From Verrucomicrobiales bacterium (lineage in GTDB: Bacteria > Verrucomicrobiota > Verrucomicrobiia > Verrucomicrobiales > DEV007): 32,723 nt of DNA. Position 1 is the first letter of the stretch, and the number at the start of each line of letters is the position of its first letter. The position numbers and the translations under genes were made by a program. Below are positions 7,689-23,227 of this stretch, in pieces. The notes beneath the pieces are model-generated. The model had not been told where the DNA came from. It searched no databases and saw only the letters and a program-made list of their open reading frames with translations. The stretch spans positions 1 to 32,723 of the forward strand of contig JARGOP010000050.1 of the NCBI GenBank assembly GCA_029233965.1, written 5' to 3'.

Positions 7689-8609
7689 TCAATCTTTCGA
7701 ACTCTTCGGGTCGAGCGCATCCCGCAGCCCGTCCCCGAGAAAGTTCAGGCAAAACAGCGTCAGCCCGAAGATGATTGCCGGGTAGATGAGAAGCCCGGGA
7801 TCACTGGCCATGCGGTCGGCACCTTCTTTAATCAATGAGCCCCAGCTCGCGTCGGGGGGCTGCACGCCGAGACCGAGAAAGCTCAGGATCGCCTCCAGTC
7901 TCATCACGGCAGGCACCGTCAGCGTGGTGTAAACGATGACGGGGCCGACTGTGTTCGGAATGAGATGACGGAAAATGATCCGGCGCTGGGAAAGCCCGAG
8001 ACTCCGCGCCGCTTCGACGAATTCCTGATTCTTCAGGGAAATGACCTGTCCCCGCACGATTCGTGACATCGTGAGCCACTCCACGGCTCCGATGCAGACA
8101 AAGAGGAGCCAGAGGTTGTTGCCGAAGTAAGTCGTGAGAATGATCACGATAATCATGAAGGGCAGCGCGTAGAGAATGTCGACAATCCGCATCATCGCCG
8201 CGTCGAGGCGCCCGCCGATGAATCCTGACACGGCACCGTAAACCACACCGATGGTGAGGGAGACGGCGGTCGCGAGAAACCCGACCGCCAGCGAAACCCG
8301 ACCGCCGTGGAGAATGCGTGAAAAGATGTCCCGTCCGAGATGATCGCTTCCGAGGAAATAGAAGACTTCTTCGCCTTCAATCGAGGTTGCTGAAGAAAAC
8401 GGCTTCATCGACTGGAGATCCGGATGGGTAATGTTCGGATTCGGAATACCCGGGACAAAAGGGAGAAAGAAACACATCACGACCACCGCGATGAAAAACC
8501 AGAGGCTCGCCATCGCGACGTGGTTTTTCTTCAGACGCAGCCAGGCGTCGCGACCGAGAGAGGAACCTTTCTCGATCGTGTCGCCCTGGCGATGTGAGGT
8601 GCTTATCAT
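7689..8609 (-). CDS. oppC: peptide ABC transporter permease, OppC/DppC type
   Basis: A 306-residue inner-membrane permease. An N-terminal helix (about 31-50) is followed by a periplasmic loop with the hallmark LGSDHLGRDIFSRILHG. The EAA cytoplasmic loop reads FVEAARSLGLSQRRIIFRHL, and the C-terminus has ILSFLGLGVQPPDASWG and FCLNFLGDGLRDALDP, all standard for OppC/DppC. It pairs with OppB, encoded just upstream. It is the last gene of oppA-oppB-oppC on the minus strand, and 83 bases separate it from oppB. A perfect small hairpin stands directly before its ATG. No ATPase gene follows, so energy must come from subunits encoded elsewhere. Confidence 0.93.
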   Translation of the reverse strand: MISTSHRQGDTIEKGSSLGRDAWLRLKKNHVAMASLWFFIAVVVMCFFLPFVPGIPNPNITHPDLQSMKPFSSATSIEGEEVFYFLGSDHLGRDIFSRILHGGRVSLAVGFLATAVSLTIGVVYGAVSGFIGGRLDAAMMRIVDILYALPFMIIVIILTTYFGNNLWLLFVCIGAVEWLTMSRIVRGQVISLKNQEFVEAARSLGLSQRRIIFRHLIPNTVGPVIVYTTLTVPAVMRLEAILSFLGLGVQPPDASWGSLIKEGADRMASDPGLLIYPAIIFGLTLFCLNFLGDGLRDALDPKSSKD

Positions 8610-8613
8610 GGTT

Positions 8614-8628
8614 TGCCGCGTCGCGGCA
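8614..8628. promoter_or_regulatory. hairpin directly upstream of the oppC start
   Basis: TGCCGC-GTC-GCGGCA is a perfect 6-bp stem with a 3-base loop, ending 4 bases before the oppC ATG. In the mRNA it would occupy the place of a ribosome binding site and none is visible there. It might tune oppC translation relative to oppB; this is inference. Confidence 0.35.
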
Positions 8629-8692
8629 GCGGAAGGTTAAAGGTGGGAAAGTCAGGTCTAGTTTGGGATCCTGGGTCTTGGGGGCTGGTGCC

Positions 8693-9619
8693 TTATTTTG
8701 ATTTCGTTCTCGGGTCGAGCCAGGCCTGGATGACATCGACGAGGAAGTTCATGACGAGGATGAGGACCGCGAAAACAGTCACGGTGCCATTGATGAGCCA
8801 GTAGTCACGGTTCGTGGCGGCTTTGATGAAATGCTGACCGAGGCCGGGGAGGCCGAAGACGGTTTCGACGACGAAGGAACCGCCGATTAAGCCGGCGAGA
8901 GCGGGGCCGAGGTAGGCGACGACAGGAGTGATCCCGCCACGGAAGGCATGTTTGAAAAGCACCTTCACCGGAGCGACGCCTTTGGCATGAGCGGTGCGGA
9001 TGAAGTCCTGACTAAGCACATCGAGCATGCTGCCGCGGGTGAGGCGGGCGATGTAGGCGGAGTAGTAGAGCCCGAGGGTAAGCGCTCCGAGAAACCAGGC
9101 GGAGCTGTTTTCCCACATCGCGACGTCGAACCAGCCTAACCTGAGCGCCAAAAATTCACCGAGGAGCGGAGCGATGACGAAGGTCGGCAGGCAGATTCCG
9201 AGCATCGCGATCGTCATCAAAGTGTAGTCCACGGCGGTGTTTCGCTTCGCGGCGGCAAAGACGCCCACGGGAACTCCGATCATGAGCGCGATGATGAGAC
9301 CGCTGATCCCGAGCATAAAGGAGACCGGAAACCCTTCGGCGATGACTTCATTGACGGTGAACCCTTTGTTTCCGAGCGAGGGGCCGAGGTCGCCGGTGAC
9401 AAGGCGTCCGAGGTAGAGGCCGTATTGGACGACGAGAGGTCTGTCGAACCCGTAGTTTTTGTTCATCTGCTCGATGAGATGCTCCGGCACCGCTTTGTCG
9501 TCGAGAAACGGTCCGCCCGGGGCGAGGCGCGCGAGGAAGAAGGTGATCGTGATGATGCACAGCAGCGCAAAGACGGACTGCCCGAAACGCGAGAGAATGT
9601 AGCGCACCGTATCCATCAT
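8693..9619 (-). CDS. oppB: peptide ABC transporter permease, OppB/DppB type
   Basis: A 308-residue permease beginning MMDTVRYILSRFGQS, with the standard first helix and LARLAPGGPF. About six helices follow. The EAA loop is FIRTAHAKGVAPVKVLFKHAFR, and the C-terminus has GSFVVETVFGLPGLGQ and DVIQAWLDPR, all diagnostic for OppB/DppB. Its ATG overlaps the oppA stop (ATGATG over TGA), so translation is coupled to the binding protein. Function: forms half of the membrane channel for oligopeptide or dipeptide import. Confidence 0.94.
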   Translation of the reverse strand: MMDTVRYILSRFGQSVFALLCIITITFFLARLAPGGPFLDDKAVPEHLIEQMNKNYGFDRPLVVQYGLYLGRLVTGDLGPSLGNKGFTVNEVIAEGFPVSFMLGISGLIIALMIGVPVGVFAAAKRNTAVDYTLMTIAMLGICLPTFVIAPLLGEFLALRLGWFDVAMWENSSAWFLGALTLGLYYSAYIARLTRGSMLDVLSQDFIRTAHAKGVAPVKVLFKHAFRGGITPVVAYLGPALAGLIGGSFVVETVFGLPGLGQHFIKAATNRDYWLINGTVTVFAVLILVMNFLVDVIQAWLDPRTKSK

Positions 9620-11289
9620 TCGCCGGTCCCCCCGCCGCGTTGGAGGTCGATGTGCTTGTAGGGGTGATTGTCGAGGAGGAGAGGGTTCCAGTTCTTCACA
9701 TCGGGGTGAAGGAGGTAAACCCGGGTGTACCAGTAAATCGGCAGTACCGGTACTTCGTCGAGGAGGATGGACTCGGCCTCTGCCAGTTTCGCGTAGCGGG
9801 CGTTCGTGTCACTGAGGAGCGAACTCTCGCGGAGAAGACGGTCATAGTCGGCGTTCCCCCATCCTGTGTTATTGTTAGAGTCTCCGGTGCGCCAGATTCC
9901 GAGAAAAGTGGTCGGGTCGACATAGTCACCGATCCAACCGGCGCGGGCGACATCGTAGTTCATGTCGATGACGGTCTGTTGGTAGACCTTCCATTCCTGG
10001 TTTTCGATTTTGACTTTTTCAATGCCGAGGACCTTTTTCCACATGTCCTGAATCGCCACGGCAATGGACTTGTGGGCGTCGGAGGTGTTGAGGATGATTG
10101 TGAATTCCGGGACGTCGGCCCCGCTCTCGTAGCCTGCCTTCTTCAGATATGCTTTGGCTTTGTCAGGATCGTAGCGGATCAGATCAGGGGGATGATATCC
10201 CGCTTCGGAGGGCGGAGTGAACCCGTAGGCCGGTTGCTGCCCGCCCTGGGTTACGTAGTTCACGATCGTTTCCTGATTGATCGAGTAGGCGAGGGCGCGT
10301 CGGAAATCGACGTTGTCGGTGGGTTCTTCCAGCGTGTTGCAGCGGTAGAAGTAGATGCCGGCGTAGGTTTCGGTGCGCAGGTTGGGATCTTTCTTTGCGG
10401 TGTAGCGGGGAATGAGGTTGGTCGGAACAATGTAGGTGTAATGAAGAAGCCCGCCACGAAAGGCCTTCTCTTCGGTGAACGAATTATCAATCGGATAGAA
10501 ATTGAGCCCGTTGAGTTTCACGTTTTCAGCATCCCAGTATTGAGGGTTCTTCCTCACCTTGATGTAGGCGTTGATTCTCCAGTCGGTGAGTCGGAATGCT
10601 CCGTTGCTGACATGGTTGCCCGGTTTCTGCCAATCGGTGAAGGTTGATGTCATGGTTCCGAATTTCTCGAGGGTCGGTCCGTGCACGGGGAGCCAGGTCG
10701 TGTGCTTGACGACGTCGGGGAAAAAGGGTGTCGGGCTCTCGAGGGTGCAGACGAGTTCGAAATCATTCACCGCTTTCACGCCGACTTCGCGGAAGTCTTC
10801 GATTTCACCCTTGTTGAACTTCTCCGCGTTCTTCAGGAAGTAGAGCATCGACGAGTAGGGCGCCGCAAAGTCGGGGTGGAGGATGCGGTTGTAGGAATAG
10901 ACGAAGTCGTGAGCGGTGAAGGGGGCGCCGTTGGACCAGCGCGCGTCGTTGCGGAGAAAGAACCGCCATTCGGAGAAATCCTCGTTCGCCTCCCAGCGCT
11001 CGGCGACGCCGGGTTCGTTTTTCGTATCGTCTTCAGGGTGATAGGCGACGAGCCCTTCAAAGAGGGCGCGCAGGATGTTGGCATCGCCGACGGCGGAGAC
11101 GAGGTGCGGGTCGAGCGCTTTAGGTTCGCCACCGTTCCCGAGGAGGAGAATTTTGTCCCGGGTCGCGATATCGACCTTGGTTTCCCGCTTGCATCCGGAG
11201 GCCGCAAATCCGATCACGAGGCAGAGACCTAAGAGGGTTAGGTCGCAGAGATAACCCTGTCGGGTCCTGTCGCGAAGCGGGTGAGTCAT
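9616..11289 (-). CDS. oppA: oligopeptide-binding lipoprotein, SBP family 5 (OppA-like)
   Basis: A 557-residue extracytoplasmic solute-binding protein. The N-terminal hydrophobic stretch ends in FAASGC, a plausible lipobox with C33 as the lipidated cysteine. Family 5 blocks follow: GGEPKALDPHL, LFEGLVAYHP, WSNGAPFTAHDFVYSYNRIL, and near the C-terminus NYDVARAGWIGDYVDPTTFL and PVLPIYWYTRVYL. The GWIGDYxDP pattern is typical of oligopeptide binders. It captures peptides for OppBC, and is first in the operon. Its start lies close to that of a divergent gene, so both promoters must fit in the interval near 11290-11396. No Shine-Dalgarno is obvious. Confidence 0.93.
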   Translation of the reverse strand: MTHPLRDRTRQGYLCDLTLLGLCLVIGFAASGCKRETKVDIATRDKILLLGNGGEPKALDPHLVSAVGDANILRALFEGLVAYHPEDDTKNEPGVAERWEANEDFSEWRFFLRNDARWSNGAPFTAHDFVYSYNRILHPDFAAPYSSMLYFLKNAEKFNKGEIEDFREVGVKAVNDFELVCTLESPTPFFPDVVKHTTWLPVHGPTLEKFGTMTSTFTDWQKPGNHVSNGAFRLTDWRINAYIKVRKNPQYWDAENVKLNGLNFYPIDNSFTEEKAFRGGLLHYTYIVPTNLIPRYTAKKDPNLRTETYAGIYFYRCNTLEEPTDNVDFRRALAYSINQETIVNYVTQGGQQPAYGFTPPSEAGYHPPDLIRYDPDKAKAYLKKAGYESGADVPEFTIILNTSDAHKSIAVAIQDMWKKVLGIEKVKIENQEWKVYQQTVIDMNYDVARAGWIGDYVDPTTFLGIWRTGDSNNNTGWGNADYDRLLRESSLLSDTNARYAKLAEAESILLDEVPVLPIYWYTRVYLLHPDVKNWNPLLLDNHPYKHIDLQRGGGTGE

Positions 11290-13547: not shown

Positions 13548-14296
13548 TCAGGCGCTTCGCGCCCCTGAGCGGAACGAAGATCGTTCTGCTACCCGGGATG
13601 AGCGTCCGCCACCGGCATTGATCGTGACTCCGGTGTCACCTTCGACTCCGGGGATGCCGAGTCCTGCCGGGTCGGCGACGGTCTGGGCCGCCGTGACGAG
13701 GACCGCCTCGGTGTGTTCCTTGAGCTTGGTCCAGGGGCTCGCGGGGACCCGGACAATGTCTCCACCCTGGAGGGTGAGTTCCGACTCTTTTCCGCGCATG
13801 AGGGCGCGGATATAGACCACGGCAACTTTGGGGCGGTGAGTGCCTCCCCGGATAATGAGCGCCTTGGTGACGATCGCATCAGGGCGGGTTCGGCCGGCGA
13901 CAGCCACCGCAGAAAGCAGACTGACGCGTTTTTCGTAAGAGACCGGGCCGGGACGGTTCACGTGACCGGGTGCATAGATTGACCGGGCAAGAGTGAGCTT
14001 CGCCGGCATCTTGCAGCGTCCCCGGTCATTTACTTCGCCAGGCACGTAGATTTCGTTTTTGGTTGCCGAGGCGACACAGATGTAGTCATCGGGTTCGAGA
14101 GATGCGTTCTGACTGAAGTCGCCTTCGTCGCAGAGGCGGGCGAGATCGACGGTGAGCTTCTGTCCTTTCCCGGCAACGAAGGACCGCTCGAGGTCGGCGA
14201 GTTCAAAGGCTGATTGACACGAAGACGATGCTCCTGCGTATCCAGGAAATGACACTGGAAAAAGATGAGGAAAAAGGCCGTGAGAAGGATCTTCAT
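13548..14296 (-). pseudogene. frameshifted, shortened polysaccharide-export (SLBB) protein
   Basis: ATG 14296 begins a good signal peptide, MKILLTAFFLIFF, but the frame then runs into nonsense. If one T is added to the T5 run at 14259-14263 (A5 on the plus strand), it continues PVSFPGYAGASSSC and joins a long open frame that encodes soluble-ligand-binding (SLBB) segments: ELADLERSF, LTVDLARLCDEGDFSQNASL, EIYVPGEVNDRG, then YAPGHVNRPGPVSYEKRVSLL and ELTLQGGDIVRVP. The usual N-terminal export domain (PF02563-like) is missing, and the first SLBB unit seems cut short. No capsule or exopolysaccharide genes are near. This is most simply a decayed gene, though a sequencing error in the homopolymer could explain the shift alone. 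Confidence 0.6.
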
Positions 14297-14425
14297 GAGG
14301 GATCAATTCTGTCCCGGGAGCCCGCCTTGAAATGGGCAAAACCAGCCGTTTTAAAAAATTGCGTTTGGCTTGGCTTGATTTGTGCTATGGTCGGCTTACG
14401 CCCCCGTAAGCCGAGAGCGCTTCCT

Positions 14426-15835
14426 ATGCCCGAACAGCGTTTTGATCAGTCTCAATCGTTGCTTCAGCAGCAAACGATTGCACCCCAGATGCAACAGAGT
14501 TTGCAGTTGTTGCAAACTCCCACTTTGGAGCTCCGCCATCTGGTCCAGCAGGAGATGGAGGGAAATCCCACCCTGGAGGAGGAGTCGACTGATGTCTCGC
14601 TGGACGAAGCATCGACACCGGGAGAAGACGATGAATTTGATAAAGAGTTCGCGGAGCTGTCCCAACTCGATGAGGAGTGGCGTGAATACATGCAGCAATC
14701 GCGCGTTGCGTCGCCCCGACGCGACGATGCCGATGAGCGTTACCAGTTCGTGATGGATTCAATCGTGGAGCCGATCACGCTTCAGGACCATCTCATGAAT
14801 CAGTTGCACTTCACCGACGCGGCGAAGGATCTGCAGGACATCGCCGGGATGCTGATCGGGAACATCGATGAGACGGGCTTTCTCTCGATTGATCTCGAGG
14901 AACTGAGTTTCGACCTGGGAATTCCTTTCGATGATCTCGAGGAGGCGAGAGCTTTGATCCAGTCTTTTGACCCGGTTGGCGTTGGCGCTTCCGATTTGCG
15001 CGACTGTTTGTTGATCCAGTTGGAGAGGTTGGGGAAGCACCACAGTCTGGAGTATCGCATCGTGGATCATCATCTTGACGATCTCGCGAGGAAGCGATAT
15101 CCGCAGATCGGAAAGAAGCTGAGTGTTGCGCCCGAGCAGATCACGAAGTCAGCCGAGTTCATTGCGACGCTGGATCCGCGCCCGGGGAGCCGATTCCGGG
15201 TTGATAACAACACCTATGTAAATCCGGATGTCGCCGTCGAACGGATCGGGGATGAATGGGTTGTCACGATGAATGACGAGCAGATTCCGCGCCTGCGGAT
15301 CAGCAACACCTACAAGGATATGATGGCTGCAGGAAGTGGCCGCGATGCGCGAGCCTACATTCGCGACAAAATCCGGGCCGGAAAATTTCTGATCAAAAGT
15401 ATCCATCAGCGCCAGCAGACGATCAAATCCATCGCAATGGAGATTGTGCAACGGCAGGTGGAATTTCTGGAGCGAGGATCATCCAAGCTCAAGCCGATGA
15501 ACATGGCTCAGATCGCGGAAGTTGTCGGTGTCCACGAAACGACGGTGAGCCGGGCGGTTTCCGGCAAATACATCTCGACGCCTCACGGGGTCTTCGAAAT
15601 GAAATATTTTTTCACGACCGGCTATGAGACCGAGAACGGGGAGACGATGAGCAACACCAGCGTGAAGCGCACCCTCGGTGAACTGATCGGGGCGGAGAAT
15701 CCGAAAAAGCCGCTCAGCGATCAGAAACTGGTCGAGGAGCTTGAAAAAAAGGGGCTCAAGATTGCCCGCCGGACCGTGGCAAAATATCGGGAGGAACTCA
15801 ACATCCTCCCCAGTCACATGCGGCGAAGCTACTGA
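14426..15835 (+). CDS. rpoN: RNA polymerase sigma-54 factor
   Basis: A 469-residue alternative sigma factor that directs RNA polymerase to -24/-12 promoters and needs AAA+ activators. Region I is the Gln-rich start (QSLLQQQTIAPQMQQSLQ, then TPTLELRHLVQQEMEGNP), followed by an acidic region II, a core-binding domain (about 105-300), the helix-turn-helix MAQIAEVVGVHETTVSRAVSG, and the RpoN box ARRTVAKYREEL at 447-458. ATG 14426 was chosen because it begins immediately before region I; the open frame extends 66 codons upstream without homology. Such proteins are usually 450-500 residues. The -10-like TATGGT at about 14393-14398 may belong to its promoter. No sigma-54 activator is encoded in the window. 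Confidence 0.97.
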   Translation: MPEQRFDQSQSLLQQQTIAPQMQQSLQLLQTPTLELRHLVQQEMEGNPTLEEESTDVSLDEASTPGEDDEFDKEFAELSQLDEEWREYMQQSRVASPRRDDADERYQFVMDSIVEPITLQDHLMNQLHFTDAAKDLQDIAGMLIGNIDETGFLSIDLEELSFDLGIPFDDLEEARALIQSFDPVGVGASDLRDCLLIQLERLGKHHSLEYRIVDHHLDDLARKRYPQIGKKLSVAPEQITKSAEFIATLDPRPGSRFRVDNNTYVNPDVAVERIGDEWVVTMNDEQIPRLRISNTYKDMMAAGSGRDARAYIRDKIRAGKFLIKSIHQRQQTIKSIAMEIVQRQVEFLERGSSKLKPMNMAQIAEVVGVHETTVSRAVSGKYISTPHGVFEMKYFFTTGYETENGETMSNTSVKRTLGELIGAENPKKPLSDQKLVEELEKKGLKIARRTVAKYREELNILPSHMRRSY

Positions 15836-17284: not shown

Positions 17285-17313
17285 CGCTTTGCCAGTCTCG
17301 CATTGGCAAAGCG
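17285..17313. terminator. 10-bp inverted repeat after the PQQ-like gene
   Basis: CGCTTTGCCA (17285-17294) and TGGCAAAGCG (17304-17313) are perfect inverted repeats with a 9-base loop. It lies 21 bases past the PQQ-like stop and just before the transporter operon. There is no T tract, so it could be an intrinsic terminator of weak type or an operator for the downstream operon. A TTG possible start of the next gene lies inside the loop, which argues for the later ATG. Confidence 0.5.
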
Positions 17314-17338
17314 CATAGCCTTGCGTAAGTTCAAAGCC

Positions 17339-19456
17339 ATGTTCTGGCTGCGAACTTTCTTCTATGTGTCGCCTCTGGCGATAGCGTTCGCGGTCGTTCT
17401 TCTCTTCCGCGAAGTCAGTCACCTGCAGCTTCCCGGAGCCGGGGAGGCGCTTACGACCTCGATTCGTGAGCCGATTGGTCTTCTCGATCCGTTGACCCCG
17501 ATCAGCGGGCCGACGCGGGAAGTCCGCGATCTCGTTTTTGATCCGCTTTTGATCCGCGACGACGATCTGAATCTACGGCCTCACATTATTTCGAGCTGGG
17601 ACGCTCAGACCGTCATCGTGATCCGCTGTTTCAGCGAAGAGGCTGCGGGCGAAGCCGAGGCGATGATTCTCTCAGAGGAATATCTCGACGAGGACATGAC
17701 GGTGCTCGGGCTAAATCGTGAAGAGTCCGTTCTTACGGTGGCGCTCGAGGGATTTGCACCGGATTTCGAGCGGCGGCTCATCGGTAATTTTGATCCGGGA
17801 TTGCTTGGTGATTATCTCCTTGTCCGGTTGCGCCTGAAGCATTCGATTCAGGATTCCCTCGCTACCTTCCTGAAATCGTCTGTCGAGAAAGGGCAGATCA
17901 AAATGCTCGATTTCGAGGGGGATCAAATCGCGAACCTTTTTGTGAAAGGGGACACTGATTTGTTTCTCCGGGAGCTCGAACTTTATTACGATTCCAATCT
18001 GAGCCTTGCTCCGGAAATCGAGGTGGTCGGAGAGCAGAGTTTTACGAGTTCGAAGGAGCTTGCCATTCAGATGCGCGGTGACGTGAAGTGGCACGACGGT
18101 CGTGCCGTCACCTCACAGGATCTTCTTTTCAGCTACAACGAGTTAACCCGGGCGGGATCCCCGATGCCGTTACAGGGAACCTTCCGGTTTCTGGAATCGC
18201 TCGAAGCGGTCGACGAGTTTTCCATTAGGGGTATTTGTCAGGATACACCTGCGGTGATGATGGAAAGTTTCGAGGCGCTCCCGCTTCTTCCTGCTCATTT
18301 GCTGAGTGATCAATCGGATTTGGAACGATGGACGAAATTTGCCGAAAGCCCGATTGGCTCCGGTCCTTACCGAATCGAAAAACGACGGGACGATGGCGGC
18401 ATCGTCCTGAGAGCATTCGAGGGCTATTTCGGCGCGAAACCCGAACAGGAGTGGAATGTCTATCGCCGCTTTGACTCGCTGGAGTCCAAGTTGCTGGCTC
18501 TCCGGTCGGGACGTGTTGATTGCCTTGTTCCCGACGAGCGGTTCAGTGACTGGACTCTGCGAAATCCGGGGCGGGTGAGGCAGATTCGTTGTCTCCCGAG
18601 GATTCAGTATCTCGTCGCCTGGAATCTCGACGTCGAGCCGCTCGATCAAAATTCAGTGCGAATGGCTCTCGCAAAATCAGTCGATCTGGATGCGGTGCTG
18701 GCGGAAACGGCGACATCCTATCAGGAGCCTGTCCAGAGTCTGTTTTTTCCGGGGGTGCCCTATGTGAGCAGGGCTCTGCCACTTCCCCTCCTTGATCTCA
18801 AAGGGGCCGAGAAGTTGCTCGAAGAAGCCGGGTATCGATTCGACGAAAGCCAGGGGGCACGGGTGAATGAGGCCGGTGTCGTGCTGACTTTGAAGCTTTC
18901 GGTAAATCAGTCTGCTCCGGAGCATATCCGCCTTGCCAGAGCGTTGCAGAATGAATGGGCGGCGATCGGTGTCGTCATCGAAATTGAGGAGATTTCCTGG
19001 GAGGCTCTTTTGAATCAACGACTTCTCTCGCGCGAGTTTCAGGGCGTTTTGCTGAGTTGGGAAATCCCTTTAAAGAGGGACCGATATGAGGTGTTCCACT
19101 CCAGAGGAGTCGAAGAGGGGGGCGGGAATCTTTTCGGACTGAGAAATCAGATTGTTGATGAATTGCTGACTAATCTCCGGGAGGAGCATCGGCCGGACAT
19201 GATCTCAGTGGTGGCCCATCGATTGCAGGAGGAAATTGTGAACCTCCAGCCCTGCTTCTTTATCGGACAGTCAGGAAGGATCATCACGATTCGCGATGAA
19301 GCAGTGGAAGTCGTCCGACCCTTGACCGGTAGAGAGGCCATACGTTCGCCCGTTGGCATTGGGAAGACCGGGTTGGAGCGATCCCGTCCCTGGTGGGTTC
19401 GCAGCGGAAAAGTGATGACTCCGTCTGCGGTGGTGCCGGAAGGAGGTGGGGAATGA
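17339..19456 (+). CDS. divergent family 5 solute-binding protein, membrane anchored, with large insertion
   Basis: About 705 residues. It has an N-terminal transmembrane anchor (residues about 5-23, no lipobox), then family 5 blocks: IGLLDPLTPISGPTREV, VFDPLLIRDDDLNLRPHI, GDVKWHDGRAVTSQDLLFSYNEL near 247-270, SGPYRIEKR, and NSVRMALAKSVDLDAVL. In the family the last block before WHDG normally follows SW after about 20 residues; here about 155 residues (roughly 90-245) are inserted. The C-terminal part is weakly like OppA. It is first of a four-gene operon, overlapping the next gene by ATGA with a perfect AGGAGGT. Substrate unknown; peptide or nickel-like ligands are possible from the family. 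ATG 17339 was preferred over TTG 17303, which lies within a hairpin. Confidence 0.82.
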   Translation: MFWLRTFFYVSPLAIAFAVVLLFREVSHLQLPGAGEALTTSIREPIGLLDPLTPISGPTREVRDLVFDPLLIRDDDLNLRPHIISSWDAQTVIVIRCFSEEAAGEAEAMILSEEYLDEDMTVLGLNREESVLTVALEGFAPDFERRLIGNFDPGLLGDYLLVRLRLKHSIQDSLATFLKSSVEKGQIKMLDFEGDQIANLFVKGDTDLFLRELELYYDSNLSLAPEIEVVGEQSFTSSKELAIQMRGDVKWHDGRAVTSQDLLFSYNELTRAGSPMPLQGTFRFLESLEAVDEFSIRGICQDTPAVMMESFEALPLLPAHLLSDQSDLERWTKFAESPIGSGPYRIEKRRDDGGIVLRAFEGYFGAKPEQEWNVYRRFDSLESKLLALRSGRVDCLVPDERFSDWTLRNPGRVRQIRCLPRIQYLVAWNLDVEPLDQNSVRMALAKSVDLDAVLAETATSYQEPVQSLFFPGVPYVSRALPLPLLDLKGAEKLLEEAGYRFDESQGARVNEAGVVLTLKLSVNQSAPEHIRLARALQNEWAAIGVVIEIEEISWEALLNQRLLSREFQGVLLSWEIPLKRDRYEVFHSRGVEEGGGNLFGLRNQIVDELLTNLREEHRPDMISVVAHRLQEEIVNLQPCFFIGQSGRIITIRDEAVEVVRPLTGREAIRSPVGIGKTGLERSRPWWVRSGKVMTPSAVVPEGGGE

Positions 19457-20310
19457 TTCGCTTTTTTGCGCGGCGCCTTTTGGTGATGTTCGTCCGCCTT
19501 GTCCTTGTTGCGATCATTTTAGTGATCGCGATCGAGCTCGGATACGGGGTGCTCGGCAATTCTGATGTCCACATCTGGGAAGTCCGTTTTTCTGATCCAG
19601 TGGTTCCCTTGAGTGAATTGTCAGGGGATTCGACCTGGGAGGAGCTCGTTCCTTTGATGAAAAACTCAATGCTCATCGTCGGCCTGGCCTGGGGGACGAC
19701 CTTGCTTGTTGGATACTCCTGGGGCATTCTTGCGGCACGGCTGAGACAATTCAAAGGGCATCATTTCCTGTTGGTTCCCTGGCTGGTTTTGGCCTCCGTC
19801 CCCGGATTCTGGTGGGTCATTCAAGTGGCGATTTATTCCTACTTCGAGTGGGAGCGACCGGGATTTGCAAACGAGGTCGTTGTTGAGTCCGGTCCCGATT
19901 TAATGCAATGGTGGAATGCCGTCGTCGTTGCCATTCCCCTGGGAGTTCTCGGCATCTCAGTGCAGATGCGAAACGTCAGCGACCGGATCCGCGAAGAGGC
20001 GGGTTTGCCGTTTGTCAGGGGACTTCACCGCGCAGGATACTCGAACAGCGACATTTTCTACAAGAACATCCTGCACCGTCTCACCGGTCAGTTGATCCGG
20101 CTTTCCGATGAAACTCTCCCGTTGATTTTGGGCGGCCTGATTTTTGTGGAGGTTGCCTTTCGTTTCGAGGGCATGGGAAACTTTCTGATTCGCTCTCTTC
20201 AAATGAGTTATTTTCCGGGGATCTTTGTCACCGGAATCTGGATGGCAGGAATCATCGGCCTGGCCGCCCTGATCAGGGAGGTAATCGGACACGGTCTTGG
20301 AGATGATTGA
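19453..20310 (+). CDS. divergent ABC permease, OppB/DppB-like
   Basis: A 285-residue inner-membrane protein, MIRFFARRLLVMFVRL at the start, with about five to six helices. The EAA-type loop is recognisable but diverged: IREEAGLPFVRGLHRAGYSNSDIFYKNIL. The C-terminal pattern GGLIFVEVAFRFEGMGNFLIRSLQ corresponds to the GSFVVETVFGLPGLG segment of OppB. ATG 19453 overlaps the stop of the binding-protein gene and follows AGGAGGTG at ideal spacing, so the start is secure. It would form the channel with the next gene product. Confidence 0.85.
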   Translation: MIRFFARRLLVMFVRLVLVAIILVIAIELGYGVLGNSDVHIWEVRFSDPVVPLSELSGDSTWEELVPLMKNSMLIVGLAWGTTLLVGYSWGILAARLRQFKGHHFLLVPWLVLASVPGFWWVIQVAIYSYFEWERPGFANEVVVESGPDLMQWWNAVVVAIPLGVLGISVQMRNVSDRIREEAGLPFVRGLHRAGYSNSDIFYKNILHRLTGQLIRLSDETLPLILGGLIFVEVAFRFEGMGNFLIRSLQMSYFPGIFVTGIWMAGIIGLAALIREVIGHGLGDD

Positions 20311-20313
20311 ACG

Positions 20314-21195
20314 ATGAAAAACCGCAAGCAATCGAAAGCCTCAAGGCACTCGCTCGTCCTGCTCGCGCGTGCGTGGGAAACCCGTTGGGTCATCCTTCTA
20401 GCCCTGGCCTATCTGAGTTCGTTTGGCTGGCTCTTTACCGCCGGGACGGTGGAAGATATCCGACCTTCGGAAATTTTCATCACCCCTGCGGACCCGGAGT
20501 GGAAAGGTCCGGGCAAAGATCATTGGTTCGGAACAACGGGAACCGGCCTTGACCTCTTCAACCTTTGCCGGGTCTCGATGGCTCAGACTATCGCGCTGGC
20601 GGCCCTAGCGAGTGGTCTTGGTCTCGGACTGGCTTTTCTCGAGGTGATGCTCTTCGCCTTTGATCGGCGTGAAAAACGATTTTCGCTCATGAAGTCATTC
20701 GCTCGGATCGGTACCCTGATGCCTTGTGCCTTGATTTTGCTGATCATCCTTGCGGGCAGTGGTGGTGGGATCACGGCCCTGGTCGCGACGGCGGCCTTGC
20801 TCGTGGCATGGCACATCGGGCCGACGCTTGCGATTTGGTTCGAAGAGTCGGAAAATCGTCCGGATATTGTTTCGGCCTACATCCTCGGGCTGTCACGATC
20901 GGAGATTGTCACGAACCGGATCGTTCCGGCAACGATCCGGAAAATGGTTGGTGTCTTTGCCCGCCTGATTCCTCAGATCGCGTTGCTCGAAATGGGACTC
21001 TCGTATCTCGGATTCGGGAGCGAGCGACTCAGCATCGGAGGTCTCGTTGCCTACGGGCAGCAGGTGATTATTGAAGCGCCCTGGCTCGCGGTTTATCCGG
21101 GGCTTTTTGCTGCGGTTGTTCTGACCGTGATGGGCTTGTTAGGCTGGTTGACATCGCGATCACTTAAGACGGGAAGGGTGAGGAGATTTCTCTAG
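20314..21195 (+). CDS. divergent ABC permease, OppC/DppC-like
   Basis: A 293-residue membrane protein. HWFGTTGTGLDLFNLC corresponds to the HPLGTDxxGRDxLSR loop of OppC, with the key Arg replaced by Leu. The cytoplasmic coupling loop reads IVSAYILGLSRSEIVTNRIVPATI. The end, LEMGLSYLGFGSERLSIGG and APWLAVYPGLFAAVVLTVMGLLG, follows the DppC pattern. It starts 3 bases after the previous stop and ends 1 base before the ATPase gene. It is recognisable as a DppC relative but well separated from the canonical oppC at 7689-8609. Confidence 0.85.
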   Translation: MKNRKQSKASRHSLVLLARAWETRWVILLALAYLSSFGWLFTAGTVEDIRPSEIFITPADPEWKGPGKDHWFGTTGTGLDLFNLCRVSMAQTIALAALASGLGLGLAFLEVMLFAFDRREKRFSLMKSFARIGTLMPCALILLIILAGSGGGITALVATAALLVAWHIGPTLAIWFEESENRPDIVSAYILGLSRSEIVTNRIVPATIRKMVGVFARLIPQIALLEMGLSYLGFGSERLSIGGLVAYGQQVIIEAPWLAVYPGLFAAVVLTVMGLLGWLTSRSLKTGRVRRFL

Positions 21196-21196
21196 G

Positions 21197-22093
21197 ATGA
21201 CGGAAGATCAGAACAGTGCATTGATCGAAGTTGCCGACCTCACCGTCGCAGGCGCGGCCGGGATTGACAGTCGAAGGATTCGGCTGCGCCACGTTTCCCT
21301 GTCCATTGGAAGAGGCGAGATCGTCGTTTTCGGTGGGGAGGCCGGTTCCGGCAAGTCACTGCTTTGCGAATTCATCAGTGGGATCACGAGGAGGAGTTTA
21401 CAAGTAACGAACGGATCGGTCAGGGTGGCAGGTCGAGATGCGATGGGAAAGCGTTCGGCGCGACTCGCGCCGCAGGTTTCGTATCTGGGGCGTGAACCCG
21501 AGTCGGCGTTTAATCCTCATCACACCGTGGAGCGTTCTCTCCGGGAGTTCACCCGACTGCTGGCACGGATTTCGAAAAAGCCGAAGGAAATGGACTGGAA
21601 CGAGGCGTTCTATGCCGTCGGCATCGTCGAGCCTGAGCGTGTTCTTCCCCTTGTTATCGGAGATCTCCCGCTCATGATGCTGCAACGTCTCGCCCTGATG
21701 CGGGCCCTCATGTCCTCCTCAAAAGTCATCATTTGCGATGAAGCGACGGCCGCGCTGGACCGCGTTGCCGAGAGCCAGTTCATTGATCTAATCACTCAGA
21801 TTCGCGAGGAGAAAAATGTCACCTTTGTCCTCGGGATGGGGCGGCTCAGGAATGCGGAGCGTTTTGCGGATCGCATTTTCCTGTTTTTTGAAGGAGGAAT
21901 TCTCGAGTCGGGCCGCGCATCGGATCTCGTCACGAAGCCAGCCTGTCGATACACTGCGGAATTCCTCGCGACTTCACCAAAATTGACGCATTTTCCCCAC
22001 GAACTGTCGACCATCAGCGCGGAAGCGATCGCGGAAGCGGAAGCGATCCTTCACGGCGGGGACGGGATTCTGCCGTCGACAGAGGCGGAATAG
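21197..22093 (+). CDS. degenerate ABC ATPase (OppD/F-like, signature motif lost)
   Basis: A 298-residue nucleotide-binding protein. Walker A GEAGSGKS (47-54), Walker B VIICDE (177-182) with the catalytic Glu, and the D-loop ALD (186-188) are intact. The Q-loop Gln is Arg (R99, in YLGREPESAFNP), the SGG of the signature is PLM (158-160, in GDLPLMMLQRLALM), and no His occurs where the switch His belongs (VLGMGRLRN, about 211-219). The rest follows OppD/F, including FNPHHTVERSLREF. A C-terminal extension (from about 262) is weakly acidic. It is the only ATPase of the operon. It may bind ATP without efficient turnover, or act with a canonical partner made elsewhere. Confidence 0.85.
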   Translation: MTEDQNSALIEVADLTVAGAAGIDSRRIRLRHVSLSIGRGEIVVFGGEAGSGKSLLCEFISGITRRSLQVTNGSVRVAGRDAMGKRSARLAPQVSYLGREPESAFNPHHTVERSLREFTRLLARISKKPKEMDWNEAFYAVGIVEPERVLPLVIGDLPLMMLQRLALMRALMSSSKVIICDEATAALDRVAESQFIDLITQIREEKNVTFVLGMGRLRNAERFADRIFLFFEGGILESGRASDLVTKPACRYTAEFLATSPKLTHFPHELSTISAEAIAEAEAILHGGDGILPSTEAE

Positions 22094-22174: not shown

Positions 22175-23227
22175 ATGATTACCGAAGAACTGATTCGAGA
22201 AAAACTGAAAGAGGTGAATTACCCCGGCTTCAGCCGCGACATTGTGTCCTTTGGCCTCGTCCAGGAAGTTCAGGTGCATGGTGCCGACGTCATCGTGAAA
22301 ATCAGCATCGCAACGAAGGATCCCAATGTCCCGCGCGGAATCCATGAGGGGATCGAAAAAGTCATCAGTGCCGTGGAAGGAGTGGGAAAGGTGAATGTCG
22401 ATTTTGATATCAAAGATCCGCCCGATCCGGTCACGGGAGGAAATCCTGCCGCCGGTCAGTCGAGCATTCCCGGAGTGAAGAAAATCATCGCCGTGGCCAG
22501 TGGCAAAGGTGGTGTCGGGAAGTCCACTGTTTCGACCAATCTTGCTATCGCGCTCAGCAAGACCGGCGCAAAAGTCGGTCTCTGCGACTGCGACCTCTAC
22601 GGCCCCAGCATTGCGATGATGCTTGGCGCTGAGGACGAACAGCCCATGGCGACGGAGGAAAATGAGATCGTTCCGATCGAGGCTCATGGAATCAAAGCGA
22701 TCTCGATGGGATTCCTCCTCAGCGATGACTCACCGGTGATTGTCCGCGGACCGCTTGCGACGCGCTACACGCAGCAGTTTTTGCGTCAGTGTCTCTGGGG
22801 AGATCTCGATTACCTCGTTCTCGATCTGCCTCCGGGAACGGGAGACATCCAGCTCACGATTGTCCAGACCGTGGCAGTCGATGCCGCTCTCATTGTCACG
22901 ACTCCTCAGGAAGTCGCCTTGATTGATGCCCGCAAAGCGATCGGAATGTTCAAAAAGGTCAACGTGTCCATCGCCGGGATCGTCGAAAACATGGCCTGGT
23001 TCGAATGCGACCACGGAGAGAAATATTTCATCTTCGGCGAGAATGGCGGTGCCGCCGAGGCTGAAAAACAGGGAGTGCCGCTCATGGGGCAGATTCCGCT
23101 CGATCCGCCGACCCGCCAGGGAGCCGATCAGGGAACGCCGATTGCGACAGCAGATCCGGAGACGAACTCTGTATCGGCCGCCTTCCGCGATCTTGCCGAC
23201 AAGGTGATCGCTTCCGTCGAAAGCTGA
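22175..23227 (+). CDS. mrp: Mrp/NBP35-type P-loop ATPase, Fe-S carrier family
   Basis: A 350-residue cytoplasmic protein. An N-terminal MIP18/DUF59 domain (about 3-80, YPGFSRDIVSFGLV and PRGIHEGIEKV) precedes the MRP-type ATPase with the deviant Walker A SGKGGVGKST (109-118), DCDLYGPSI, and DYLVLDLPPGTGD. Members carry Fe-S clusters for transfer to apoproteins, usually through a CxxC at the dimer interface. Here that region reads FECDHGEKY, keeping only one cysteine (C278). ATG 22175 begins right at the first domain; there is no clear Shine-Dalgarno. It lies 81 bases after the ABC operon on the same strand. Confidence 0.93.
   Translation: MITEELIREKLKEVNYPGFSRDIVSFGLVQEVQVHGADVIVKISIATKDPNVPRGIHEGIEKVISAVEGVGKVNVDFDIKDPPDPVTGGNPAAGQSSIPGVKKIIAVASGKGGVGKSTVSTNLAIALSKTGAKVGLCDCDLYGPSIAMMLGAEDEQPMATEENEIVPIEAHGIKAISMGFLLSDDSPVIVRGPLATRYTQQFLRQCLWGDLDYLVLDLPPGTGDIQLTIVQTVAVDAALIVTTPQEVALIDARKAIGMFKKVNVSIAGIVENMAWFECDHGEKYFIFGENGGAAEAEKQGVPLMGQIPLDPPTRQGADQGTPIATADPETNSVSAAFRDLADKVIASVES

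Follow-up and report, generated by a model that had tools for sequence, protein, structure and literature searches.

The gene at positions 21197-22093 of the window, by which we mean the whole stretch of 32,723 nucleotides of Verrucomicrobiales DNA that was analyzed, codes for an ABC ATPase (here called D') that is probably a pseudo-ATPase and, with a second one, part of a complete Opp/Nik-type complex which is vertically inherited and works without ATP hydrolysis. We infer a lineage-wide pair of pseudo-ATPases, in which the likely partner of D', an OppF-like protein from a second locus (F'), is itself degenerate. Hydrolysis of ATP at paired sites is what defines ABC transporters, and the well-known exceptions retain one working site. 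An importer lineage in which the catalytic motifs were lost together in both subunits, yet the proteins were kept under selection, would represent a test of NBD roles beyond hydrolysis, which may consist in holding the permease dimer, gating the permease, or signaling.

The degenerate ATPase D' and its operon

D' is a protein of 298 amino acids that matches the ABC ATPase family PF00005 of Pfam with 68.3 bits (cut-off 25), and its closest NCBIfam model is NikD (116.6 bits vs. a cut-off of 318.7). The gene, its motifs and its neighbors in the window are as follows.

14228-15835, plus strand: rpoN, the upstream synteny anchor (Pfam sigma-54 domains)
17303-19456, plus strand: solute-binding protein (SBP) of family 5 with one N-terminal membrane anchor at residues 16-34 (PF00496, 143.8 bits; hydropathy)
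19453-20310, plus strand: probable OppB-type permease, coupling-helix Gly retained (PF00528, 23 bits vs. a cut-off of 26.4)
20314-21195, plus strand: probable OppC-type permease (several NCBIfam OppC/NikC models below cut-off; coupling helix recognizable)
21197-22093, plus strand: D', degenerate OppD/NikD-like ABC ATPase and gene of the main finding (Pfam, NCBIfam, alignments)
21335-21358, plus strand: Walker A motif GEAGSGKS of D', residues 47-54, intact (Lys in 18/24 genus members)
21491-21493, plus strand: Q-loop position of D', Arg99 instead of Gln (Gln in 0/24 genus members)
21665-21688, plus strand: ABC signature of D', LPLMMLQR replacing LSGGMQQR, residues 157-164 (SGG in 0/24 genus members)
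21725-21742, plus strand: Walker B motif VIICDE of D', residues 177-182, intact (Glu in 11/23 genus members)
21752-21760, plus strand: D-loop ALD of D', residues 186-188 (Asp invariant, 23/23)
21839-21841, plus strand: switch position of D', Gly215 instead of His (Gly in 20/23 and His in 0/23 genus members)
22010-22054, plus strand: conserved C-terminal tail of D', residues 272-286, consensus ISREAxREAEEAVH, without known catalytic role (alignment)
22175-23227, plus strand: mrp (NUBPL/ApbC-type), the downstream synteny anchor (PF10609, 316 bits)

The motif positions were assigned by alignment to canonical OppD/DppD-type proteins, and the family profile of D' aligns with DppD and OppD of known structure over almost the entire length, with the Q-loop, signature and switch positions falling where they had been assigned. 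These alignments bear out the first-pass annotation of the gene, which had read the Walker A, Walker B and ALD motifs as intact, the SGG of the signature as changed to PLM, the Q-loop Gln as changed to Arg, and the switch His as absent. To judge from the aligned sequences, D' lacks the LSGGQ-type signature, the Q-loop Gln and the switch His of catalytically competent ABC ATPases. The signature clamps ATP across the dimer, the Q-loop Gln senses ATP, and the switch His supports hydrolysis. The genus set, obtained by whole-genome searches, comprises 24 genomes including that of the window, 23 of which were scored for the switch His. Some of its members have gone further and lost the P-loop Lys (6/24) or the Walker B Glu (12/23). 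Orthologues with normal motifs, which would have marked D' as a decaying copy, were searched for and not found within the genus; canonical relatives occur only beyond it, in genome G034 of the same family and in other families of the order. In the C-terminal tail, I273, S274, A277, E280, A281, E282 and H286 are invariant or nearly so in the alignment of relatives. A single-sequence structure prediction of D' reached a pLDDT of 32.2 and was unusable.

The loss of three motifs had also been called unusual, and the window genome agrees with this: its 36 other ABC ATPase matches, taken as a control, all contain Walker A, the Walker B Asp-Glu and the switch His, and only D' and F' deviate from this full set.

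The gene order rpoN, PQQ-repeat protein, SBP, OppB, OppC, D' and mrp is kept wherever the contigs are long enough. No second ATPase was found in the operon at any orthologous locus by locus comparison, which confirms the earlier description of D' as the sole ATPase of its operon. The OppB-type permease was tentatively assigned from weak NCBIfam matches to Opp/Nik permease models and from alignment of the coupling helix, and the OppC-type permease gave zero matches in the Pfam scan. SBP orthologues are present in 26 of the 34 genus genomes, and the protein has no recognized domain ahead of residue 251; about 150 residues (roughly 80-240) preceding the family 5 domain match no Pfam family.

Several minor observations concern the same region and its counterparts. 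In other lineages, the two permeases of the related system apparently form one protein of 520-560 amino acids (L136:9160-10854, L135:7294-8862, L137:8720-10342), and that of L135 shows no Pfam permease match whatsoever. Upstream of rpoN, a minus-strand ORF at 13548-14339 of the window resembles a polysaccharide-export (SLBB-type) protein; because it overlaps the start of rpoN as called, the start of one of these two ORFs is probably misplaced. Further minus-strand ORFs of 306, 308 and 557 amino acids at 7689-11289 resemble a second peptide-type set of two permeases and a binding protein, the 557-aa ORF matching the SBP of the window weakly (E 5e-4).

F' and its co-occurrence with the D' cassette

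The first-pass annotation had considered that D' might cooperate with a canonical ATPase from outside the operon. F' is indeed a likely second ATPase from another locus, but it is degenerate and not canonical; because its own catalytic motifs are affected, pairing with it would not rescue hydrolysis. F' is an OppF-like ABC ATPase on contig C118, outside the window (match at 39271-39960, minus strand), where it adjoins rodA. It matches PF00005 with 52.1 bits (cut-off 25), and its closest NCBIfam model is OppF for murein tripeptide/oligopeptide (153.9 bits vs. a cut-off of 540). In the window genome, it carries the Walker A motif GEENSGKR with the P-loop Ser/Thr changed to Arg, a Ser at the Q-loop position, the signature LDAVERQ, the Walker B motif CDG with Gly in place of Glu, and Asp in place of the switch His. 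SGG, the Q-loop Gln and the switch His are absent from all F' proteins of the genus (0/23, 0/22 and 0/23, respectively), and their replacements are fixed: the signature Ser is changed to Asp in 22/23, the second Gly to Val in 21/23, the Gln after it to Glu in 23/23, and the switch His to Asp in 23/23. The Walker B Glu is lost in 22/23 and the Walker B Asp in 20/23, the P-loop Lys is retained in 11/22, and the D-loop Asp is present in 23/23.

An AlphaFold2 model of an F' orthologue (91% identical, built on a 20-sequence alignment) reached a pLDDT of 92.2 and matched OppF of E. coli (8z21_D) over all 260 residues with a Z score of 32.0 at 2.3 Å (VIA-align). The modeled F' is a complete NBD, with its fold preserved. 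The F' carriers with names are metagenome-assembled Verrucomicrobiales, some labeled Akkermansiaceae, and no cultured organism was seen among these named relatives. An LDAVERQ-type F' was not found outside the group in a scan of 84,980 species genomes that reaches only peptide-pattern matches; the few matches beyond the F' group attained only 21-32%.

The cassette of SBP, OppB, OppC and D' is found together with F' in the genus. Of the 25 genus genomes that are at least 85% complete, 20 contain both, five contain neither and none contains only one (Fisher p 1.9e-5, ignoring phylogeny), and the mismatching genomes in the full genus set are all only 53-77% complete. Genomes without the system show clean empty sites, with rpoN, PQQ and mrp lacking the cassette in between and moaA and rodA lacking F'. 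According to the Mrp tree, whose support is weak in places, the absences fall into at least two lineages (G011/G022 and G025/G030). Outside the genus the co-occurrence is less complete: G078, G080 and G088, which are 89, 83 and 93% complete, contain the SBP, F' was not found in them, and they are possible exceptions. The F matches in these three genomes were rejected as F' orthologues, being canonical OppF-type proteins. Pairwise D and F distances correlate with r=0.88 over 33 genomes, a value that is to be read with the reservation that shared phylogeny alone also yields high values.

Selection and origin of the degeneration

Selection on the five genes was estimated as dN/dS by the Nei-Gojobori method from the two closest genomes (G000 vs. 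G006); dS amounted to about 1.3-1.8, hence the values are approximate. We obtained 0.079 for D', 0.027 for F', 0.059 for the SBP, 0.085 for OppB and 0.048 for OppC. The value of about 0.08 for D' indicates purifying selection rather than decay, and F' is constrained more tightly still. Among the 24 genomes, one D' reading frame is interrupted by a stop close to its C-terminal end, and another is truncated where its contig ends. A sequencing error or a lone decayed copy was ruled out by the 24 genus members together with the dN/dS values.

Other families of the order encode a comparable SBP (about 25% identity), with permease genes and a canonical D gene but no F behind it; their canonical F gene is found on its own, directly ahead of the same rodA-type gene. 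Because canonical D and F genes already occupy separate loci there, the split arrangement appears to be older than the degeneration. In the window's own family, G034 contains canonical D and F, and the six other genera with readable D or F (g18, g19, g21, g24, g26 and g29) contain degenerate forms with a mosaic of Gln and His, SGG never being present. Among these degenerate forms outside the genus, the Q-loop Gln occurs in 3/12 D proteins and the switch His in 3/12 D and 6/12 F proteins; the D counts omit G080, where the match at the SBP locus was an ABC-F protein and D was not found, and G079, where D was not found either. In the maximum-likelihood trees of both D (support 99/96) and F (95/66), a single branch splits the canonical from the degenerate forms, and the genera branch in largely the same order. 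The simplest reading of these sequences would be one origin, with the signature lost early in both subunits and further losses later. The family has preserved graded intermediates, from the canonical G034 via the partly degraded g29 and g26 to the window's genus as the furthest, so that the order of losses can be studied.

Proposed mechanism, alternatives and a possible link to the cell wall

The proposed complex would consist of the membrane-anchored SBP, OppB, OppC and D' from the operon and of F' from the rodA-linked locus, with D' and F' forming a heterodimer under OppBC. Because neither subunit has the signature, the Q-loop Gln or the switch His, no composite site should clamp or hydrolyze ATP productively. 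The invariant D-loops may help to keep a lasting dimer, and ATP may still be bound by the P-loop of D' in a structural or regulatory role. Lacking a productive hydrolysis cycle, such a complex would not perform ATP-powered import; it would be left with a pore through the membrane, a binding protein and an NBD assembly as its base, and may act as a receptor or scaffold for peptides or muropeptides, or else as a ligand-gated permease that works passively. The fixed F' replacements, the invariant D-loops and the preserved NBD fold point to a dimer that was retained and repurposed. The sequences leave room for slow or single-site hydrolysis, which is conceivable because D' of the window has full Walker A and Walker B motifs and half of the scored F' proteins keep the P-loop Lys; likewise, since Gln or His is retained in some degenerate forms outside the genus, some residual activity could persist in part of the group. 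A precedent for a gated passive permease is a D-loop mutant of TAP, which became a nucleotide-gated facilitator without direction, and the conserved degenerate site has been argued to have gained a function (PMC7756269), which fits the fixed residues of F'. No published ABC importer with both sites degenerate was found in a literature search of open-licence papers.

Among the alternatives, it is unlikely that the complex still hydrolyzes ATP by a divergent mechanism, in which LPLM, LDAVERQ, Gly and Asp substitute functionally for the lost residues. D' of the window has kept Walker A, the Walker B Glu and the D-loop, and the F' replacements are fixed to the degree expected of catalytic residues, but the recurrent losses of the P-loop Lys and the Walker B Glu among the D' proteins of the genus, and of the Walker B Glu and Asp in nearly all F' proteins, argue against such a mechanism. 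We know of no ABC hydrolase that tolerates such P-loop Lys and Walker B losses in close relatives. We also regard it as quite improbable that D' pairs with a canonical ATPase from elsewhere, such as the intact OppD/OppF-type enzymes on contigs C17 or C27, to give one working site. In its favor, the window genome contains canonical OppD/OppF-type ATPases, and pairs of a degenerate and a canonical site are well known from exporters (PMC7756269). On the other side, the ATPases on C17 and C27 already form D-F pairs of their own, and it is F' that co-occurs with the cassette, vanishes with it and mirrors the D' tree. Even with a canonical partner, both composite sites would suffer from a D' subunit that has neither signature nor Gln nor His.

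A system that is decaying slowly in the lineage and headed for loss would be consistent with the drift of the D' motifs at several positions, with the faster evolution of D' relative to its neighbors, and with the genomes that lack the cassette. Such pseudogenization is nevertheless very unlikely, as the reading frames are open in deeply diverged genomes, the F' replacements are fixed, degenerate forms are present in seven genera of the family, and the low dN/dS values of all five genes already contradict it. It seems most improbable of all that D' and F' come from two separate, unrelated pseudo-ATPase systems and share their distribution merely by phylogeny. The Mrp tree explains the absences with only two changes, which means few independent events, but two or more separate lineages are without both genes, and the canonical forms of other families are likewise split, in that the SBP locus carries D but no F, and F stands by itself at rodA, which argues that D' and F' make up one Opp-type pair.

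The probable pseudo-ATPase complex shares with OppABCDF, DppABCDF and NikABCDE an SBP of family 5, two probable permeases, and D- and F-type ATPases, and the best relatives of D' and F' with solved structures include DppD, OppD and OppF. It differs from these systems because both of its ATPases lack the signature, Q-loop Gln and switch His, because D and F are encoded at two loci, and because no subunit attains an NCBIfam equivalog cut-off, the latter being a weak criterion since even canonical D and F, those of G034, fall short of the cut-offs of their best models. FtsEX-like ABC complexes regulate cell-wall enzymes rather than transport, and their FtsE is a canonical ATPase. A non-transport role at the cell wall may be shared with them, given that F' adjoins rodA, whereas FtsE is not the best model match of either D' or F'. 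Solitary BioY-type transporters are said to work without an ATPase module, which would make them an earlier case of an ABC-type importer part operating independently of ATP, but in our case the ATPase subunits are retained. Heterodimeric exporters with one degenerate site (TAP, TM287/288, MRP1 and CFTR; PMC7756269) likewise keep a conserved degenerate site under selection. They retain one complete site, unlike D' and F' if these are partners: with the signature lost in both, neither composite site would be complete.

The position next to rodA is common to F' in the genus and to canonical F in other families. RodA and MreB are missing from G011, G014 and G022, three genomes without the system, and both proteins are present in all seven tested genomes with the system. 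Against this link stand the small number of independent losses and the exceptions G025 and G030, in which RodA and MreB are present and the system is absent. The RodA/MreB link weakly favors a role at cell-wall elongation. A receptor role is favored by the rodA neighborhood, the murein tripeptide/oligopeptide OppF as best model, and the joint absence of RodA and MreB in G011, G014 and G022. As a tentative and rather doubtful extension, a whole ABC importer might have turned into a hydrolysis-independent receptor for cell-wall peptides, with the RodA/MreB elongation machinery as its target.

Two further observations relate to the rodA locus. The genomes of G011, G014 and G022 have sizes of about 3.5 Mb, and G016 contains a divergent MreB and no RodA (cf. 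L058:8072-9253, G000:C118); the elongation machinery was apparently lost within the genus. Downstream of rodA (L058:2632-8012, G000:C118), there is a genus-conserved block coding for a GldA-like ABC ATPase, a GldG-like protein and a DUF4340-type protein.
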